Shown in pieces: positions 13,607 through 23,573 of a stretch of 35,581 nt of DNA. The notes below the pieces were generated by a model. The model worked only from the letters and a program-made list of their open reading frames with translations. It ran no database searches and was not told the DNA's origin. The DNA lies in contig JACXWD010000034.1 of assembly GCA_014764515.1 (NCBI GenBank), positions 1-35,581 on the forward strand, given 5' to 3'. This DNA is from Candidatus Polarisedimenticola svalbardensis (GTDB lineage Bacteria; Acidobacteriota; Polarisedimenticolia; Polarisedimenticolales; Polarisedimenticolaceae). The position numbers were made by a program, and so were the translations under genes. Position 1 is the stretch's first letter, and each line of letters starts with the position of its first letter.

Positions 13607-13687
13607 AAAATGGGGACATCGCACATTATATTACAATAATTAAAAGGGAGTAATTATTAGAATATAATGTGCGATGTCCCCTTTTTT
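13605..13687. repeat. 83-nt near-perfect hairpin: MITE/REP-like element or bidirectional terminator
   Basis: A 6-nt A-run (13605-13610) is followed by one unpaired T and a 21-nt arm (13612-13632), which begins GGGGACATCGCACATTAT. The perfectly complementary arm lies at 13661-13681, followed by a T6 run. Between the arms a second stem, AATAATTA (13635-13642) with TAATTATT (13651-13658), closes an 8-nt loop AAAGGGAG. GGGGACA-type palindromes resemble those mobilised by REP-associated tyrosine transposases in many genomes; no such transposase is in the window. The symmetrical A6/T6 flanks would also let it act as an intrinsic terminator in both directions. It separates the symporter from the polymerase gene. 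Confidence 0.75.
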
Positions 13688-13720: not shown

Positions 13721-13735
13721 CGAAAGTAAGACGAA
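13721..13735 (+). promoter_or_regulatory. Putative SOS-type operator CGAA-N7-CGAA before the Y-family gene
   Basis: CGAAAGTAAGACGAA is a direct repeat of CGAA with 7-bp spacing, 15 bases before the ATG. It matches the reverse complement of the dnaE2 upstream site (CGAAAGTAAAGCGAA) at 13 of 15 positions, and similarity continues into both flanks (CA before; ATCA shortly after). The architecture recalls the direct-repeat LexA boxes of Alphaproteobacteria (GTTC-N7-GTTC). The element overlaps the leader of the gene. Confidence 0.55.
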
Positions 13736-13750
13736 AATCAGGAGGTGGGT

Positions 13751-14893
13751 ATGCAGGTCATCCACCTGGATGTGGCCGATTTTGCCGTGGCGGTGGAACG
13801 GGTGGTGGATCCCGGTCTTTGCAACCGCCCGGTGATCCTGGCCCCGGATGCGGACCGGGCGCTGGTGGCCACTGTCTCCAGGGAGGCCCGGCGGGAAGGG
13901 GTCCGACCCGGAATGCCCCTCCGCGAGGCGTTGCGGCGTTGTGGCGGCGCTCGGGTGGTCCGGCCCAACGAGCCGCTGTACGCCCGGGCCTTCAAGGCGG
14001 TGGGGGAGGTGGCCGGCCGGTTCAGCCCGGTGCTGGAACCTGTCTCTCCCGGTCGGATCTACCTGGACGTTACCGGCACCGACCGGCTGTTCGGCCCGCC
14101 TCTGGACCTGGCGGCCCGGCTGCGTCGTGAACTGTCGGCCCGGTTGCGCCTGGACGCTGCTGTAGGTGTGGCTGCCAACAAGCTGGTGAGCCGGGTGGCC
14201 GCCGATCTGACCGAACCGGACGGCCTGCTGGATGTCCGGACCGGGGATGAGGCGCCGTTCCTGGCGCCGCTCCGTGTGCAGCGGCTTCCGGGGGTCGGCG
14301 CCGCCGTGGGGCGGGAACTGGATGCGTTGAACATCCGGTGGGTTCGGCAGCTGGCGGTGATGGAGCCGGCCCACCTGGATCTGGCGTTCGGCCGTTTCGG
14401 CGCCGTGCTGCGGCAACGGGCCCTGGGGATCGATCCGCGCCCGGTACAGCCGCCTCTTCGAAAGCCGGAGGTCCAGCGGGAGGAAACCCTGGTGGAGGAT
14501 TCCAACGATCCGGCGGTGTTGCGCGCCGCCTTCCGCACCCTGGTGGAGAGCGCCGGCCTGGAACTGCGGGTCCGGGGGCTGACGGCGGCCCGCATGGCGC
14601 TGGAGCTGAGGTATGCCGATTCCCGGGCCACTGCCCGGTCGGTTCGTGCCCGCCGGCCCCTGCAGCAGATCTCCGAACTGTGGCGCAGCGCCGAAGAGCT
14701 GCTGGAGGCCGCCCTGTCCCGACGGGTCCGGGTCCGCCATCTCCGGTTCCGCCTTGCCGGCCTGGCCAGCCGCCCACGGCAGATGGAACTGTTCGGCGAG
14801 CCTTCGCCGGAACGGCCGCTGACCACCGCCATGGACCGGATCCGGACCCGGTTCGGCGAGACGGCGCTGCTCCACGGCCTGCAACTTCCGTAA
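13751..14893 (+). CDS. ImuB-like Y-family DNA polymerase homologue with altered active site
   Basis: This 380-aa protein has the Y-family fold order: palm/fingers start VIHLDV (D7 retained), REARREGVRPGMP, then the motif that in DinB reads S-L-D-E-A-Y-L-D. Here it reads SPGRIYLD, so the two catalytic carboxylates are replaced by G101 and R102. HhH (RLPGVGAAVGREL) and little-finger regions follow. Near the C-terminus QMELF (344-348) fits a beta-clamp-binding motif. This pattern matches ImuB, the non-catalytic scaffold that recruits DnaE2 to the clamp, although typical ImuB is longer. The ATG at 13751, after AGGAGG with 5-bp spacing, is preferred to a GTG six bases upstream. A dnaE2 gene lies 5.6 kb downstream under a similar operator. 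Confidence 0.85.
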   Translation: MQVIHLDVADFAVAVERVVDPGLCNRPVILAPDADRALVATVSREARREGVRPGMPLREALRRCGGARVVRPNEPLYARAFKAVGEVAGRFSPVLEPVSPGRIYLDVTGTDRLFGPPLDLAARLRRELSARLRLDAAVGVAANKLVSRVAADLTEPDGLLDVRTGDEAPFLAPLRVQRLPGVGAAVGRELDALNIRWVRQLAVMEPAHLDLAFGRFGAVLRQRALGIDPRPVQPPLRKPEVQREETLVEDSNDPAVLRAAFRTLVESAGLELRVRGLTAARMALELRYADSRATARSVRARRPLQQISELWRSAEELLEAALSRRVRVRHLRFRLAGLASRPRQMELFGEPSPERPLTTAMDRIRTRFGETALLHGLQLP

Positions 14894-15013
14894 GGCGGCC
14901 AATTTCCGGTATCCTAGTGAATATCAATGCTCACAGCACCTCTTCGGCGTATGTATTCAGCTGGGTTGGTTTGTCTTTCAGCCAGTATCAACGGTATTTT
15001 CTCGGGGGGGGCC
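14894..15013 (+). other. Upstream region of the subtilase gene
   Basis: This 120-bp gap holds a possible -10 TATCCT (14910-14915) without a good -35. An in-frame ATG at 14927 would add 29 residues before the signal peptide and is unlikely to be the start. A G-rich ribosome-binding stretch (15004-15011) precedes the ATG at 15014. I see no riboswitch or terminator. Confidence 0.4.
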
Positions 15014-18000
15014 ATGAAATCCTGCATCCAGAAAGTCTTTGTTCTATCTCTCTTTACTGTCGTTTCCCTGGCGGTGCCGATCCTGGGAGAAGAGCGGCTT
15101 GAGGTGTCTTCCGATCAGTCCGGAGCCGCCATCGGTCTTACCGGTGCGGCGCCGTTCCATACGACGACAGGTCGGATCACGGATGAACGGCTGATCCAGG
15201 TGCCGGGTACCGGCACCCGTCTGGCGCTCTGGAACGAGACCGACGGCGGTGGTGCGGTGTCGCCGTACTACGCCATCAGCCGGGCCGGGGAGCCGATGGG
15301 ACAATCGGTGCGAACCTCCTATACGTTGAGACTCCGTCACGGTGACTTTGACCCGTCCCGTTCGGTGGCGGAGGTAGACGATTTCTTCTCTTCGGGGGAA
15401 GGTGAGAACCTGCATATCGTCCAGTTCGAAACCCAGCCCCTGGCAGAGTACCGCAGGGCGCTCCGGTTCCTAGGAGGGGAGACTCTCGGTTACCTGCCGG
15501 GGCACGCGGTCATCGTGCGGGTCAGCCCGGGGAACCTGGCCCGTGTCCACCAGTTGCCGTTCGTGCGCTGGTCCGGCCCGTACCACCCGGCCTACCGCCT
15601 GGAGGAGTTTCTCAGGGACAACCGGGAAAATGCGACGGAAGCCTACCCGTCGCAGCGCTACAACATCCTGACTTTTGAGGAAGGGGAAAGTGGTCTGCAG
15701 AAGGTCCTGCAGCGGCTCAAGGCCCTGGGTGACGGTGTGGAGCCGTATCCCGGCGGCAAGTACCTGGCCACGGCGCTGCTCACGCCGGTCCAGCTTTACC
15801 GGGTCGCCCGCTGGGACGAGGTCCAGTTCATCGACCGCTGGACTCCGATGGAAAAGGACATGGACATCGTCCGTGAGATCGGCGGCGCAAACTATCTGGA
15901 GACCGTGGCCGGGTACACCGGCGCCGGGGTTCGGGCGGAAATCTTCGATGCCGGGTTCAATATCGCCCATCCTGACTTCCAGTCCCGGCCGCTCATCGAA
16001 CATGGTGGCGTCGTCGGCAACGATTCCCACGGTACCGCCACCGCCGGGGTCAATTTCGGCGACGGCACAGGCGACCCCAGGGCCCGTGGGATCATGCCGG
16101 ACGGCCAGGGCATCGTAGCCGACTACAGCAACGTCGGACTGAACGGGGCGACCCGTTACGCGCACACCGGGGAACTGCTGCAGGACCCGTATTACGCGGT
16201 GTTCCAGACCTCCAGTGTAGGTGACGGACGTACCTTCAACTACACCACCATCTCCGCCGACCACGACACCCTGCTGTTCGACTGGGACCTGCTGCACTGC
16301 CAGTCCCAGAGCAACGCCGGCAACCAGGACTCCAGGCCCCAGGCCTGGGCCAAGAACGTGCTCTCCGGCGGGGCGTTCAACCATTACGACACCCTCACCC
16401 GAACCGATGACTGCTGGTGCAACAGCGGCAGTATCGGGCCAGCCTCCGACGGCCGGATCAAGCCGGACCTGAGTTTCTTCTACGACGATACCTACACGAC
16501 CTACTCCACCGGTGCGGGCTATGGCGAATTCGGCGGCACCAGCGGCGCCACGCCGTCGATCTGCGGGTACAGCGGTCTGTTCTTCGAAATGTGGTCCGAC
16601 GGCATTTTCGGCAATGAAGTCGACCCGCTGGGGACGGTGTTCGAGAACCGACCCCACATGACCACCGCCAAGGCGTTCATGATCAACACCGCCGACCAGC
16701 ACCCGTTCACCGGCCAGTCCCATGACCTGACCCGGGTGCACCAGGGCTGGGGCGTGCCGGATATCCGCAACCTGTACGACATGCGCGATAACATTTCATT
16801 CATCGACGAGTCGTTCCTCTTGACCAACATGGAGGGCGTGGAGTTCAACGCCCTGGTCGATCCCGGCGAACCGGCCCTGCGGGTGACCATGACCTATGCC
16901 GATCCCGCCGGGAACCCGGCGGCGTCCCAGCACCGGGTCAACGATATTTCGGTGAAGGTGACTTCACCATCCGCGGTGGTGTACCACGGCAACGTCGGCC
17001 TCCTGGACGGCAACTGGTCCACCCCCGGCGGCGTGCCCAACAATTACGACACCGTGGAAAACGTCTTCGTGGATAACCCGGAGGAAGGGCTCTGGATCAT
17101 CGAACTCACCGCGGCGGAGATCAACCAGGACGGTCATGTGGAAACACCGGAACTGGACGCCGACTTCGCCCTGGTCGTTTCCGGTGCATTCATGACCAAG
17201 TGCACCTCTGACGGCCGGATCTCCTTCAATGGCTCGAAGTACGCCTGTGAGGACCAGGCCAGGGTCCGGGTGGTGGATTGCGACCTGAACACCGACGACG
17301 GCACCATCCAGACCGTGGCCGTTTCCCTGACCTCCGGTTCGGAGCCTGCCGGGGAAACGCTCATCCTCACCGAAACCGATCCTGCTTCAGGAACGTTCCA
17401 GGAACTGATAGCCGTCAGTGAAACCGATGCGTCCGGGGTCCTGCAGGTCGCCAACGGTGATCTGATAACCGCCGAGTACATCGATGCCGACAACGGCGAG
17501 GGCGGCACCAACCTGTCCAAGACGCGGCAGGCGGAGATCGATTGCTCCGAGCCGTTGATAACAGGGGTCGGCGAGAGCGGCGTCAGCGATGTCGCCGCCA
17601 CCGTTACCTGGACTACCGACGAAAATGCGTCCAGCGAACTGGTCTGGGGCGGCGTGATCCCTCCGACCAACTCCGTTGCCCGTGCAGGCAACCGGACCGA
17701 CCATGCCATCAACCTGAGCGGTCTCTCCGCATGCACCATTTACCACTACGAGGTCCGGTCGGAAGATCCCTACGGCAACATGGCGGTGGACGACAACGGC
17801 GGCGAGTATTACCACTTCGAAACCATGGGTGATTTCGGCTCGGGGTTGCAGCCGTGTCATGCAGGCCAGGTTGACTTCGACCAGGCGGTGGTGTCCTGCG
17901 CCGACACCCTGTCGTTCCAGGTGGTGGACCTGGATTTGAATACCGACCCGGCTGTGGTGGAGACAGTTACCCTGTTTGTCAGCAGCAGCTCCGAGCCTGC

Positions 18001-19624
18001 CGCCGAGCCGGTCGTCGCCACCGAGACCGGCGCCAACACTGCGGTGTTCACCGGCTCCATCGGCACGGCGCCTGGAGCGGCGGCCTCGGACGGACAGCTC
18101 CAGACCGCCGGCGGTGACCTGCTCACCGTGACTTACCATGATCACGATGACGGTTTCGGCGCCACGGCGGTGTCGTTCGCCACGGCGGTAGCCGACTGCA
18201 GCGGGCCTGCGATCCAGAACCTGCGTGTCACCGATCTGACCGACCAGCGCTTCACCGTGCGCTGGGAGACCGGAGAGCCGGCGGACACATGGCTGGAGTG
18301 GGGAGCGACCCCGTCCCTGGGCACCACAGTATCCAGTCCCGGGCTGACAACCAGCCATGCGGTGACCCTGAATCAGTTCGATGCCTGCGGCCACGGGTAC
18401 CTGTCGGTCCGTGGCACCGATATCCATGGCAATCTCGCCGTTGCCGATCTTGGGGGGCAGCCGTATGTCACCTCAACCGGGATGATCCCCGGCCTGTACT
18501 GGCAGGACACCTTCGAGAACGGGTCCGGCGGCTGGACCCTGGACGGGGAGTGGGAAATCGGCCAGCCCCAGGGGTTGGGCGGCTCTTCCGGCGGCGGCGA
18601 CCCGTCCGATGCCTTCAACAACGCCGGTATCCTGGGCCACGACCTTTCGGGGCAGGGGGCCTACGGCGGCGACTACGAGCCGGACACCAGCGAATCCGCA
18701 AGCTCGCCGACGCTGGACGCCACATCGTGGACCAACACGCGGCTGATCCTGACCCGGCGGCTGAACGTGCACACCACCGACACGGCATCCATGTGGCTGT
18801 GGACCGATTCCGGACGTCCACTGTTCCTCAGTGACGGCACGATGAACGAGTCGAGCTACCAGGTGCAGGTCCTGGACATCCCCCAACAGGTGGACGGCAA
18901 ACCGGCCATCCGCCTGGAGTTCAAGCAACAGGCCGACGGCGCCACCCAGTACTCCGGCTGGAACGTGGACGACCTCATCTTCAAGGACGGCAGCCTCCCG
19001 GATAACGGCGTCTGTGCCGACTGCTCCGGCAACCCGTCCTTCGCCGGGATCGTTTCGGCCATGGACAACAACGCCTGCGGACTGGACGGCGTCACCGTGT
19101 CCTGGAACCCGGCGTTCTCCTGGGGCAGCGGCTCCGGAGGCACCTATGCCGTTTACCGGGACATGGCGCCTGGCTTTGCGCCGTCACCGGCGAACCAGGT
19201 GGCGTCGGGGATCGCCGGCCTGTCCTGGGTGGACAATACGGCGCCGACGGGACAGCAGGTGTACTACCTGGTTCGGGCCGAGAGCGACGAGACCTGCGGG
19301 GGAGGCCCCAACAACGGCGGCATGACCGACAGCGGCACCGTCTACGCGGCGGTGACCGATACCGACACCCAGGCGGTGCCGGGTGAAGTCACCGGGTTCG
19401 CCGTCGACCTGTCCAACAGCGTCCACGTGCGGTTGAGCTGGAGCGCTCCTCCGAACGCATCCGGCTACCGTGTGTACCGCTCCACCGATCCCCAGCCGGG
19501 GACGTTCCTCCAGCTTGGGGAAACTTCGGAGACGTTCCTGGACGACACCGGCGCCGGTGCCAACGCCAACCGGTACTACTACAAGGTCGCGGGGGTGAAC
19601 GCCTGCGGGCAGGAGGGGCTCTAG
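15014..19624 (+). CDS. Large secreted subtilisin-like (S8) protease with duplicated Ig/FN3 modules
   Basis: This 1536-aa exported serine protease begins with a signal peptide (core VFVLSLFTVVSLAVPI). A propeptide-like region to about residue 290 is followed by the S8 domain with D312 (EIFDAGF), H339 (NDSHGTATAG) and S510 (GGTSGATPS), a complete triad. After a beta-rich domain (about 600-725) come two copies of a module pair: an Ig-like domain with DLNTD and SEPA motifs (about 730-845 and 950-1055), each followed by an FN3-like domain (about 850-937 and 1057-1150). Then follow a jelly-roll/MAM-like domain (about 1160-1330) and two C-terminal FN3-like domains. No C-terminal anchor or sorting signal is seen. 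The start follows a long G-tract. It is probably involved in extracellular protein degradation. It separates the two polymerase genes. Confidence 0.92.
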   Translation: MKSCIQKVFVLSLFTVVSLAVPILGEERLEVSSDQSGAAIGLTGAAPFHTTTGRITDERLIQVPGTGTRLALWNETDGGGAVSPYYAISRAGEPMGQSVRTSYTLRLRHGDFDPSRSVAEVDDFFSSGEGENLHIVQFETQPLAEYRRALRFLGGETLGYLPGHAVIVRVSPGNLARVHQLPFVRWSGPYHPAYRLEEFLRDNRENATEAYPSQRYNILTFEEGESGLQKVLQRLKALGDGVEPYPGGKYLATALLTPVQLYRVARWDEVQFIDRWTPMEKDMDIVREIGGANYLETVAGYTGAGVRAEIFDAGFNIAHPDFQSRPLIEHGGVVGNDSHGTATAGVNFGDGTGDPRARGIMPDGQGIVADYSNVGLNGATRYAHTGELLQDPYYAVFQTSSVGDGRTFNYTTISADHDTLLFDWDLLHCQSQSNAGNQDSRPQAWAKNVLSGGAFNHYDTLTRTDDCWCNSGSIGPASDGRIKPDLSFFYDDTYTTYSTGAGYGEFGGTSGATPSICGYSGLFFEMWSDGIFGNEVDPLGTVFENRPHMTTAKAFMINTADQHPFTGQSHDLTRVHQGWGVPDIRNLYDMRDNISFIDESFLLTNMEGVEFNALVDPGEPALRVTMTYADPAGNPAASQHRVNDISVKVTSPSAVVYHGNVGLLDGNWSTPGGVPNNYDTVENVFVDNPEEGLWIIELTAAEINQDGHVETPELDADFALVVSGAFMTKCTSDGRISFNGSKYACEDQARVRVVDCDLNTDDGTIQTVAVSLTSGSEPAGETLILTETDPASGTFQELIAVSETDASGVLQVANGDLITAEYIDADNGEGGTNLSKTRQAEIDCSEPLITGVGESGVSDVAATVTWTTDENASSELVWGGVIPPTNSVARAGNRTDHAINLSGLSACTIYHYEVRSEDPYGNMAVDDNGGEYYHFETMGDFGSGLQPCHAGQVDFDQAVVSCADTLSFQVVDLDLNTDPAVVETVTLFVSSSSEPAAEPVVATETGANTAVFTGSIGTAPGAAASDGQLQTAGGDLLTVTYHDHDDGFGATAVSFATAVADCSGPAIQNLRVTDLTDQRFTVRWETGEPADTWLEWGATPSLGTTVSSPGLTTSHAVTLNQFDACGHGYLSVRGTDIHGNLAVADLGGQPYVTSTGMIPGLYWQDTFENGSGGWTLDGEWEIGQPQGLGGSSGGGDPSDAFNNAGILGHDLSGQGAYGGDYEPDTSESASSPTLDATSWTNTRLILTRRLNVHTTDTASMWLWTDSGRPLFLSDGTMNESSYQVQVLDIPQQVDGKPAIRLEFKQQADGATQYSGWNVDDLIFKDGSLPDNGVCADCSGNPSFAGIVSAMDNNACGLDGVTVSWNPAFSWGSGSGGTYAVYRDMAPGFAPSPANQVASGIAGLSWVDNTAPTGQQVYYLVRAESDETCGGGPNNGGMTDSGTVYAAVTDTDTQAVPGEVTGFAVDLSNSVHVRLSWSAPPNASGYRVYRSTDPQPGTFLQLGETSETFLDDTGAGANANRYYYKVAGVNACGQEGL

Positions 19625-19641
19625 CGGCAGGTGAAATAGGG

Positions 19642-19679
19642 TTGCCTGGAGTTGAGCAAAGTATATACTTATATATACT
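19642..19679 (+). promoter_or_regulatory. Promoter/operator of the nucleotidyltransferase-RHH module
   Basis: TTGCCT (19642-19647) and TATACT (19664-19669) with 16-bp spacing form a plausible promoter starting near 19676, four bases before the ATG. The -10 lies inside the perfect 10-bp palindrome AGTATATACT (19660-19669), and a second TATACT follows at 19674-19679. Such repeated TATAC half-sites are typical binding sites for ribbon-helix-helix antitoxins that repress their own operon. Confidence 0.5.
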
Positions 19680-20141
19680 ATGTTTTTGTTGAAAGTTACC
19701 CAGGCGTTGGAGAAGGCCAAGGTGTCGTACGCCCTGGTCGGCGGTTTCGCCGTGGCCCTCCATGGCGCCGTGCGAGGCACGCTGGACGTCGACCTGATCC
19801 TGCGGTTCTCCGAGAAGCAGTTCACGGCAGCCGAACAGGCTCTGGAGGCTATCGGCCTCCGCCCCCGATTGCCCGTGACCGCCAGGGAAGTTTTCCGGTT
19901 CCGTGAAGAGTACATCCGCAACCGCAACCTGCATGCCTGGTCGTTCGTGAATCCCGATCGCCCATCGGAAATCGTGGACGTCATCCTCACGGAGAACCTG
20001 GCGGATGTGAAGGTCCGTCGGTTGAAGGTTCAGGGCCAGACCGTCCGTGTGATCTCCGTGGCAGATCTGATCCGCATGAAGGAACAGAGCGGACGGCCCC
20101 AGGATCTGGAAGACGCCAGGGCGTTGAGGGACCTCTCATGA
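19680..20141 (+). CDS. AbiEii/MNT-like nucleotidyltransferase, probable toxin-antitoxin component
   Basis: This 153-aa minimal nucleotidyltransferase has GG at 21-22 (LVGGFAVALHG), the paired carboxylates D36 and D38 (RGTLDVDLIL) and a third at D100 (EIVDVIL). That is the full polymerase-beta-type metal site, so it should be catalytically competent. Relatives in the AbiEii and MNT groups add nucleotides to RNA or to partner proteins, as toxins or as antitoxins. The last four bases overlap the start of a ribbon-helix-helix gene, giving a two-gene module. There is no Shine-Dalgarno before the ATG and the promoter lies right against it, so the mRNA is probably leaderless. Base composition around the start is AT-rich compared with its neighbours, in line with horizontal acquisition. 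Confidence 0.82.
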   Translation: MFLLKVTQALEKAKVSYALVGGFAVALHGAVRGTLDVDLILRFSEKQFTAAEQALEAIGLRPRLPVTAREVFRFREEYIRNRNLHAWSFVNPDRPSEIVDVILTENLADVKVRRLKVQGQTVRVISVADLIRMKEQSGRPQDLEDARALRDLS

Positions 20142-20401
20142 GGCCGGTGCAGTACTTCTCCAGGGAGTACCTGAAACAAACACGGCGCATGAGCCCGGAG
20201 GAAATCCTCCGGTTCCTGGAAGACTTCCGGCTGATGCACGAGAAGCCTGCGGCCAGCAAGTTGATCAGTATGAAGGTACCGGAGTCGCTTTTAGCTGCTT
20301 TCCGATTCAAATGCAGCGAGCGGGGGGTAAAATACCAGACCCGGATCAAGGAACTGATGACGGCCTGGGTCCAGGGTGATGAGAACAATCAAAAGGAGTG
20401 A
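20138..20401 (+). CDS. Ribbon-helix-helix (BrnA/CopG-like) protein, partner of the nucleotidyltransferase
   Basis: This 87-aa protein has an N-terminal helical part (residues 1-35) and then the sequence KLISMKVPESLLAAF followed by GVKYQTRIKELM. These match the beta strand, helix and 'YQT.I' end seen in CopG/BrnA antitoxins. RHH dimers insert the beta strand in the DNA major groove and usually repress their own operon while neutralising a toxin. It overlaps the nucleotidyltransferase by four bases (ATGA), so translation is coupled. The order here (enzyme first, RHH second) is the reverse of most RHH toxin-antitoxin operons. Role as antitoxin is inferred from context. Confidence 0.78.
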   Translation: MRPVQYFSREYLKQTRRMSPEEILRFLEDFRLMHEKPAASKLISMKVPESLLAAFRFKCSERGVKYQTRIKELMTAWVQGDENNQKE

Positions 20402-20422: not shown

Positions 20423-20451
20423 TTGATATTCGCTTTACTTTCGTGTATTTT
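20423..20451 (+). promoter_or_regulatory. dnaE2 promoter with SOS-type operator in the spacer
   Basis: TTGATA (20423-20428) and TATTTT (20446-20451) are separated by exactly 17 bp. The spacer contains TTCGCTTTACTTTCG (20429-20443), the reverse complement of the CGAA-N7-CGAA element found before the ImuB-like gene. A repressor bound there would block RNA polymerase. A further copy of the left half, TAAAGCGAA (20467-20475), forms a perfect 9-bp inverted repeat with TTCGCTTTA (20429-20437) just before the ATG. Damage-inducible control is the natural reading. Confidence 0.6.
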
Positions 20452-20480: not shown

Positions 20481-23400
20481 ATGGAAAATTCAGGGCAGTT
20501 CGTCCATCTCCATGTCCATTCCCATTTCTCCTTCTGCCGGGGGGTGGACGGGCTCCGTGAGCTGTGCCGGGCTGCCCGGGCGCGAGGCATGGACACCCTG
20601 GCCGTCACCGATACCAACGGCCTGTACGGCCTGATCTGGTTCCTGCAGTTCGCCCGTGAAGAAGGCATCCGGCCGATCGTCGGGGCGGAGGCGGTCTGGG
20701 GCGGGGAGCAGGCGGTGGTCCTGGTCCGGAACGAGGAAGGGTACTCCGGTCTGTGCCGCCTGCTCTCGAACCTGCACCAGGCGGCGGGGCCGACTGTCGG
20801 CTCAGAGGGCATCGGGGCAGGCTCCCCGGCGCCGTTCGATCTGGGCCAGGCCCTGGTCGACCTTCCTGCCGGGGTGGTGATCCTGACACGTTCCACCCGG
20901 TTGCTGGAGCGGTTGGCGGTCCACCGGTCCACACAGGATCTGTACGGCGAACTCCGTCCCGACCTGGCCCCGGCGGAGCGAGGCCGGTTGAAACGGTTTC
21001 TGAAGGACCACGGCCTGCCCCCGGTGGCCACCGCCGCCGCCTGTTTCGCCCACCGGGAGGGGCACCGCACCCACCGGTTGCTCCGGGCCATCGCCACAGG
21101 CTCCACCCTGGCGTCGTTCCGGGGTGACGACCCACCTGGAACCGCGCCGCCGGATTGCTGGCTGGCGGACCCGGGGGTTATGGAAGGGCGGCACCCGGAT
21201 CAGCCCGAGGCGATGGCCAACAGCCTGCGTATCGCCGACGCCTGCCGCTTCACCCCGGAACTGGGCAAACCGATCTTCCCGGCGTACGTCACCGCCGACG
21301 GCGGCGATCCTGCTGCTCTCCTGGAGCAGCTTTGCCTTGATGGCGCCTACAGGCGGTACGGCGGCGTAGGTGAACCGGTCCGTCGCAGGCTGGATCACGA
21401 GATGGCGATCATCCGGGCCAAAGGGTTCTCGCCGTACTTCCTGGTGGTCCGGGATATCGTTGCCCAGGCGCCCCGGACCTGCGGCCGGGGGTCCGCCGCC
21501 GCCAGCCTGGTGTCGTACCTTCTGGGGATCACCCACGTCGATCCGATCCGTCACGACCTGTACTTCGAGCGCTTCCTGCACCACGGCCGCAGCGACCCTC
21601 CGGACATCGACGTCGATTTCCCCTGGGACGAGCGGGACGATGTCCTCAAATGGGTCTTCGACCATTTCGGGGAGGGCCAGGTGGCGATGATCGCCAACCA
21701 CTGCACCCTCGGAACCCGGGCGGCGGTGCGGGAGACCGCCAAGGTCCTGGGGCTGCCCGGCGCCGAGATCTCCCGGGTGTGCAAGCGGTTCCCGTGGCAC
21801 GCCGACGATCCGATGGAAGTGGTCAGGAAGCACCCCTGCTTCCGGGGAGTGGAACTGGGGGAGCCGTGGCCGGAGATCTTCCGGCTGGCGATGACGGTGC
21901 AGGGAACTCCCCGGAACCTGTCGGTGCACTGCGGCGGTGTGGTCATCGTCCCAGGCGGCGTGAGCCGGGTGGTGCCGGTGCAGCCGACCCCCAAGGGGTT
22001 GCCGGTGGTGCAGTGGGAGAAGGACCAGGCGGAGGACGCCGGCCTGGTGAAGATCGACCTCTTGGGAAACCGCTCTCTGGCGGTGATCCGGGACGCCTGC
22101 CGGGAGGTTGGGGATCACGGCGGGGAGTCGATCGACTTCCACCGCTTCGATCCGACCGAGGATGCCGAAACCTGCGCCATGGTGTCCCGGGGAGAGACCA
22201 TGGGGGTGTTCTACGTGGAATCGCCGGCCATGCGGCAGTTGCAGGCCAAGTGCGGCAAGGGCGACTTCGAACATCTGGTGATCCACTCCTCCATCATCCG
22301 GCCTGCCGCCAACGTCTACATCCAGGAGTACGTCCGGCGGCTCAAGGGCGGGTCCTGGGAGCCGCTGCATCCGGCCCTCGACCATGTCCTGCGGGAGACC
22401 TACGGGATCATGGTTTACCAGGAAGACGTTTCCCGGGCCGCCATCGCCCTGGCCGGTTTCGACGCCGGATCCGCCGACGAGCTCCGGAAGGTCATGTCGA
22501 AGAAACACAAGGCGGCGAAGCTGGCCGACTACCGGGACCGCTTCATCGACGGCGCCCGGCGACGGGGGATCGGCGACGACGTCATCGGGAAGATCTGGGA
22601 CATGATGCTGTCGTTCTCCGGGTACTCGTTCTGCAAGCCGCACTCGGCGTCGTACGCCATGGTGTCGTTCCAGTCGGCGTACCTCAGGGCCCACCATCCG
22701 GCGGAGTTCATGGCGGCGGTGATCTCCAACCAGGGCGGGTACTACTCCGCCTTCGCCTACGTGTCCGAAGCGCGGCGGATCGGTCTTGCGGTTCTTCCGC
22801 CGTGCATCAACCGCTCCATGAAACACTGGACCGGACGGAACGACGCCATCCGGGTCGGGCTCATGCAGCTCCAGGGTTTTCCCGGCAGTGCACGGGATCA
22901 CCTGTTGCAGGACCGGGCGCGGTCCGGGCGTTACCGGGACTTTGACGACCTGCTGCAACGGGCCGGGGACGTTGCAGGACCGGAGGCGGTCCGGACCCTG
23001 ATCCTAGCCGGGGCGTGCGACGGCCTGCTCCCTGCCGGCGGCAACCGGGCCGACCTGGCATGGAAGCTGGCGGCATGGAGCCGCAGCCGGGAAAGAACCC
23101 CTGCAGACGCAAGCCTGTTTGCCTCCCACCGGGTCGAACCTGAGCCACCGTCCCGCCTCCCCCGCATGGGCCGCTACGACGACAGGGCGCTCCTGGAACA
23201 CGAGGTCCGCTGCCTCGGCTTTCTGGTCAGCCGCCACCCGCTGACCCTGTACACCGACGTCATCCGGAAGGCGAAGGCGGTGCCGGCCCGGGACCTGAAC
23301 CGTCATGTAGGGCGGAGGGTCACCCTGGTCGGCTGGTACGTCACCGGCAAGCCGGTGATGACGAAACACGGAGAGGCGATGGAGTTCCTGTCGTTCGAGG

Positions 23401-23573
23401 ACACCACCGCCCTGTACGAGACCACGTTCTTTCCCAGGGCGTACGACCGTTTCTGTTCCATGATCTCCCGCCACCGGCCGTATTTCCTCACCGGACGGGT
23501 GGAGGAGAACTACGGCGTGGCGACCCTGAACGTGGACGGGGTGCGTCCCGTGGATCGCGCCGCTGGCGGATGA
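20481..23573 (+). CDS. dnaE2: Error-prone DNA polymerase III alpha subunit, DnaE2 (ImuC) type
   Basis: This 1030-aa C-family polymerase has an N-terminal PHP domain (HLHVHSHFSFCRG, H9/H11/H13), then the palm with the catalytic motif PDIDVDF (374-380; D377 and D379 correspond to the E. coli alpha metal ligands). After the polymerase core and HhH region comes a C-terminal OB fold (VTLVGWYVTGKPV..EFLSFEDTT). Length about 1030 and the absence of the long DnaE1 tail fit DnaE2, the translesion polymerase of the ImuA-ImuB-DnaE2 mutasome. Replicative DnaE1 is usually about 1150 aa or more. No imuA is adjacent; an ImuB-like gene is 5.6 kb upstream. No clear Shine-Dalgarno precedes the ATG. The operator in its promoter suggests induction by DNA damage. 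Confidence 0.92.
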   Translation: MENSGQFVHLHVHSHFSFCRGVDGLRELCRAARARGMDTLAVTDTNGLYGLIWFLQFAREEGIRPIVGAEAVWGGEQAVVLVRNEEGYSGLCRLLSNLHQAAGPTVGSEGIGAGSPAPFDLGQALVDLPAGVVILTRSTRLLERLAVHRSTQDLYGELRPDLAPAERGRLKRFLKDHGLPPVATAAACFAHREGHRTHRLLRAIATGSTLASFRGDDPPGTAPPDCWLADPGVMEGRHPDQPEAMANSLRIADACRFTPELGKPIFPAYVTADGGDPAALLEQLCLDGAYRRYGGVGEPVRRRLDHEMAIIRAKGFSPYFLVVRDIVAQAPRTCGRGSAAASLVSYLLGITHVDPIRHDLYFERFLHHGRSDPPDIDVDFPWDERDDVLKWVFDHFGEGQVAMIANHCTLGTRAAVRETAKVLGLPGAEISRVCKRFPWHADDPMEVVRKHPCFRGVELGEPWPEIFRLAMTVQGTPRNLSVHCGGVVIVPGGVSRVVPVQPTPKGLPVVQWEKDQAEDAGLVKIDLLGNRSLAVIRDACREVGDHGGESIDFHRFDPTEDAETCAMVSRGETMGVFYVESPAMRQLQAKCGKGDFEHLVIHSSIIRPAANVYIQEYVRRLKGGSWEPLHPALDHVLRETYGIMVYQEDVSRAAIALAGFDAGSADELRKVMSKKHKAAKLADYRDRFIDGARRRGIGDDVIGKIWDMMLSFSGYSFCKPHSASYAMVSFQSAYLRAHHPAEFMAAVISNQGGYYSAFAYVSEARRIGLAVLPPCINRSMKHWTGRNDAIRVGLMQLQGFPGSARDHLLQDRARSGRYRDFDDLLQRAGDVAGPEAVRTLILAGACDGLLPAGGNRADLAWKLAAWSRSRERTPADASLFASHRVEPEPPSRLPRMGRYDDRALLEHEVRCLGFLVSRHPLTLYTDVIRKAKAVPARDLNRHVGRRVTLVGWYVTGKPVMTKHGEAMEFLSFEDTTALYETTFFPRAYDRFCSMISRHRPYFLTGRVEENYGVATLNVDGVRPVDRAAGG

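Follow-up and report, generated by a model that had tools for sequence, protein, structure and literature searches.

What is a Y-family DNA polymerase for when its catalytic site has been lost, and which partners might it work with? The question is raised by one gene in the window, a stretch of 35,581 nucleotides of Candidatus Polarisedimenticola svalbardensis (contig C165 of the 3.69-Mb genome), which had been read in an earlier note as an ImuB-like protein and perhaps a minimal adaptor subunit. We find that its product is very probably a catalytically dead, gbDinB2-like subunit of a mutasome that lacks ImuA and includes the error-prone polymerase DnaE2 encoded downstream. The DnaE2B-iPolY pairing itself has already been published for relatives of Geobacter; the split of the cassette and the candidate LexA box described below are new details. 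The gene and its features, with the evidence for each, are:

13751..14893, + strand: inactive Y-family polymerase (iPolY, gbDinB2-like), 380 aa (translation, Pfam, alignment, tree)
14051..14056, + strand: codons of G101-R102, in place of the DinB catalytic D103-E104 (alignment to E. coli DinB)
14777..14791, + strand: beta-clamp-binding motif QMELF at residues 343-347, located in a tail of low confidence (translation, family alignment, AlphaFold)
14810..14878, + strand: RecA-N-terminus-like motif, about residues 354-376, PERPLTTAMDRIRTRFGETALLH (alignment, shuffle test, AlphaFold helix)

The reading frame translates without internal stops, and Pfam places the IMS domain at residues 6-152 (E 1.9e-34) and IMS_C at residues 241-347. 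A MAFFT alignment pairs D8, D103 and E104 of E. coli DinB with D7, G101 and R102 of iPolY, so the catalytic acids are not merely shifted by a few residues; it agrees with the original reading of SPGRIYLD in place of SxDEAYLD, with D7 kept and two catalytic acids lost. Displaced acids were also rejected on the clade-wide pattern, with both acids of the second motif replaced in 37 of the 37 tested members of the iPolY clade. The protein of a same-genus sister species is 90% identical and likewise carries G-R, and the two orthologues are under purifying selection (dN/dS = 0.23). Because of the sister species, the dN/dS value and the clade-wide absence, the loss of the acids is neither chance nor a sequencing error; the first two also led us to reject a pseudogene.

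Nor is the protein shortened, as had been supposed: 380 aa is a normal length for a PolY. The AlphaFold model, built from a 21-sequence alignment, has the Y-family fold (mean pLDDT 83, pTM 0.57), with palm, fingers, thumb and little finger all present. It superposes on DinB and Dpo4 structures with Z of about 28-29 over about 335 residues at an rmsd of 6-7, and domain placement in the model is therefore loose. The genome contains a second Y-family gene, of the active type, whose IDEAFLD motif has the acids intact.

The loss is shared well beyond this genus. About 20 relatives from the same phylum lack both acids, most of them at 39-52% identity to iPolY, as do further relatives from Geobacteraceae, Desulfobacteraceae, Nitrospirota and others. 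Nearly all clade members have Gly at position 101, followed by His, Arg, Gln or Gly at position 102. A maximum-likelihood tree of 57 rows gathers the inactive PolYs into one group with a single label change (support 91/83), separate from DinB, UmuC and active PolYs and including proteins of Citrifermentans bremense and Geomonas. The nearest relatives of the window protein on this tree are all inactive, rather than active DinBs with displaced acids.

Beyond the little finger, residues 344-354 are disordered in the model (pLDDT < 50), a stretch which takes in most of QMELF. The clamp motif, which had been noticed near the C-terminus, opens this tail and is not buried in the fold. A second motif beyond it, resembling the N-terminus of RecA, had been overlooked. 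The tail sequence AMDRIRTRFGETALL aligns with the N-terminus of the same genome's RecA, AMGQIERQFGKGSIM, and a helix is predicted at residues 356-368, after the disordered stretch. The match is short; its resemblance is equalled in 28 of 5000 shuffles, the motif is conserved across the clade alignment, and such a RecA-NT motif has been described (PMC6511836). The protein terminates a few residues further on, and the C-terminal ImuB-C domain is absent from it.

The surroundings of iPolY hold the following features:

13721..13735, - strand: candidate LexA box TTCGTCTTACTTTCG, upstream of iPolY and 15 bases from its start codon (pattern search)
14927..20401, + strand: genes separating iPolY from DnaE2, also present in the sister species
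14927-19624, + strand: S8-peptidase-domain protein, 1565 aa, a weak domain match (Pfam, E 6.8e-07)
19680-20141, + strand: nucleotidyltransferase, between iPolY and DnaE2
20138-20401, + strand: CopG-antitoxin-like protein, between iPolY and DnaE2
20429..20443, + strand: candidate LexA box TTCGCTTTACTTTCG, lying between TTGATA and TATTTT hexamers of the DnaE2 promoter (pattern search)
20481..23573, + strand: partner polymerase DnaE2, of DnaE2B-like type, 1030 aa, with intact polymerase aspartates and a degenerate PHP site

The DnaE set of the genome consists of the replicative DnaE1 and the protein encoded in the window. The latter keeps the polymerase aspartates in PPDIDV and KIDLL and has lost the PHP metal-site residues, a combination which matches the DnaE2 description in PMC12926913. 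It forms one clade with the DnaE partners of iPolYs, apart from DnaE1 and from the DnaE2 linked to imuA-imuB. In most relatives whose contig is long enough, a DnaE homologue starts between -16 and about 1,300 bases past the iPolY stop; lexA commonly lies just upstream of iPolY, giving a lexA-iPolY-dnaE2 cassette without imuA in most of them, and the linkage spans several phyla. A mobilizable plasmid of Desulfosarcina ovata (L071, NZ_AP021877.1) carries the order lexA-DUF72-iPolY-DnaE2, so the module is able to pass from host to host; several other iPolY cassettes likewise have DUF72 genes nearby. Three phylum-mates (L033, L034, L035) encode a PolY with intact DE and an adjacent related DnaE2 (gap 9-11 bases), with lexA upstream. 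This cassette is apparently an active counterpart and possibly represents the state before inactivation.

In the window, iPolY and dnaE2 do not form an operon, because they lie 5.6 kb apart with other genes in between. The cassette is split likewise in the sister species, the iPolY-dnaE2 segment being common to both at 80% DNA identity. There is one RecA gene in the genome and one LexA gene, which share a contig other than that of the window. The nucleotidyltransferase and CopG-antitoxin-like genes (19680-20401) overlap and look like a small toxin-antitoxin-like unit. Just upstream of iPolY, a 70-bp inverted repeat (13612-13681; GGGGACATCGCACATTATATT and its reverse complement) belongs to a dispersed MITE/REP-like family, with 48 arm matches in the genome and 0 for the reversed control; a further copy is found immediately 3' of the active dinB (C150:11529-11609).

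The separated genes share a promoter site. Allowing at most one mismatch, TTCGNNTTACTTTCG has two matches in the 3.69-Mb genome, which lie in the iPolY and dnaE2 promoters, and both sites are kept in the sister species. The direct repeat TTCGN7TTCG is also present in the lexA promoter, conserved in both species, and the site is therefore probably a LexA box, LexA binding being suggested by this sharing of the motif. The recA promoter has TTCGN7TTCT, one mismatch away, and the active dinB has no such repeat upstream. In a class-mate from a different family, TTCGCTTTATTTTCG precedes iPolY by 52 bases; in most relatives TTCGN7TTCG was not seen upstream of iPolY, and a de novo search for spaced-pair motifs in the relatives' upstream regions returned only GC-rich or clade-copy noise. 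The repeat resembles the direct-repeat LexA box of Alphaproteobacteria, GTTC-N7-GTTC, as cited in PMC8565304. We found no acidobacterial LexA motif in the literature, and a candidate is now on offer for this lineage. That each half of the split cassette keeps a promoter site whose form occurs nowhere else in the genome provides independent regulatory evidence for the partnership of iPolY and DnaE2.

The loss of catalysis with retention of a clamp motif had been taken as the hallmark of ImuB; both traits hold, and the identification as ImuB does not, the protein being DinB-like in sequence and length. A true shortened ImuB, which had lost ImuB-C and worked with an ImuA encoded elsewhere, would resemble iPolY in its catalytic loss, clamp motif and link to DnaE2, and in the 57-row tree ImuB does attach to the iPolY clade (93/80), though via very long branches that make its position unsure. 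However, imuA is not adjacent, as had been observed (the gene upstream of iPolY is a sodium/solute symporter), and is absent from the genome: the best match to the ImuA model NF033429 is RecA itself at 38 bits, below the cut-off of 150, while a true ImuA used as positive control scored 222 bits. In BLASTP iPolY scored 31.6 bits against an ImuB and 211 bits against its Citrifermentans homologue, and its DnaE2 partner falls outside the imuA-imuB-linked group. On the absent ImuA, the tree and the low score to ImuB we rejected a truncated ImuB, a reading we regard as very unlikely. As to a standalone ImuB-C elsewhere in the genome or cassette, no neighbouring gene gave a match and PF20114 matched only below its cut-off; this model also misses a true ImuB and was set aside as an uninformative marker.

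Similarly small credence, and not quite as much, goes to a protein that acts alone, competing for the clamp or RecA and for instance restraining the active DinB, with no stable DnaE2 complex. That DinB has intact acids, the two tail motifs of iPolY would permit competition and the gene is unlinked from dnaE2 here; yet the linkage to DnaE2 in relatives of several phyla, and a promoter site common to these two genes and unique in the genome, argue against solitary action. It is highly improbable that the protein remains an active polymerase with other residues replacing D103 and E104. The window protein does retain D7, and the YLD aspartate (D106) does not vary in the family alignment, but relatives have T, N, A, R, Q or other residues in place of the first aspartate and nearly always Gly at position 101, which leaves no conserved alternative set of ligands. 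The slightest chance of all is left to a decaying pseudogene: the broken operon and lost catalytic site would be expected of one, whereas the frame is open in both species at the dN/dS given above, and motifs and promoter site are conserved.

We consider it most likely, from these sequence comparisons, that iPolY is an SOS-induced, non-catalytic scaffold which brings the clamp, RecA and DnaE2 together for translesion synthesis. DNA damage would lead to cleavage of LexA and to induction of both iPolY and dnaE2. iPolY would then bind the beta clamp by QMELF and RecA by its C-terminal motif while holding DnaE2, which would itself perform translesion synthesis, the Y-family fold serving presumably as a scaffold rather than an enzyme. 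The adaptor part of the earlier suggestion, as an adaptor for DnaE2, is supported by the loss of both acids across the clade, the linkage and the shared promoter site; the protein is, however, no minimal or truncated form of ImuB. A further idea, unlikely though it is, would have the near-invariant Gly and the His/Arg/Gln after it under selection for some new role, such as contact with DnaE2 or DNA, and the two private LexA boxes timing scaffold and polymerase separately.

A DnaE2B-iPolY-RecA mutasome with a gbDinB2-like iPolY was predicted by Timinskas and Venclovas 2019 (PMC6511836) and Timinskas et al. 2026 (PMC12926913), and the latter describes its wider phyletic spread, iPolY in the G. 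bemidjiensis DinB2 group and genomes without ImuA/ImuB. In both papers the ImuA-less DnaE2 mutasomes are predictions from genomes and models, and we found no report of a bench test in the literature. G. bemidjiensis is now Citrifermentans bemidjiense; since Citrifermentans bremense is in the clade, together with Geomonas, sequence places the iPolY of this acidobacterial genome in the published gbDinB2-like group, the congener serving as proxy for the G. bemidjiensis protein. The two systems share an inactive PolY, a clamp motif, a RecA-NT motif, the lack of ImuA/ImuB and the DnaE2 link. They differ in the cassette, which in the window genome is split, with lexA on a different contig and a separate candidate LexA box for each of iPolY and dnaE2; the triad is D-G-R in the window iPolY and T-G-R in gbDinB2-like proteins.

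Other known systems are more distant. ImuB of ImuA-ImuB-DnaE2 is also a dead Y-family scaffold with a clamp motif that works with DnaE2, whereas iPolY has neither ImuA nor an ImuB-C domain, is of low similarity to it and pairs with another DnaE2 clade. The scDinB2-like iPolY of Streptomyces has the same published composition (iPolY, DnaE2B and RecA; PMC6511836, PMC12926913) and is by published description a separate iPolY group, the sequences sampled here being from organisms other than Streptomyces. DinB (Pol IV) is alike in overall fold (Z about 29) and length, and differs in D103 and E104, which are G and R in iPolY. A PolY from a Chitinivibrionia MAG (L114), which branches just outside the inactive clade, has the triad N-D-E, with Asn for the first aspartate and DE kept, and carries TTCGGTTCAGTTTCG 40 bases upstream.
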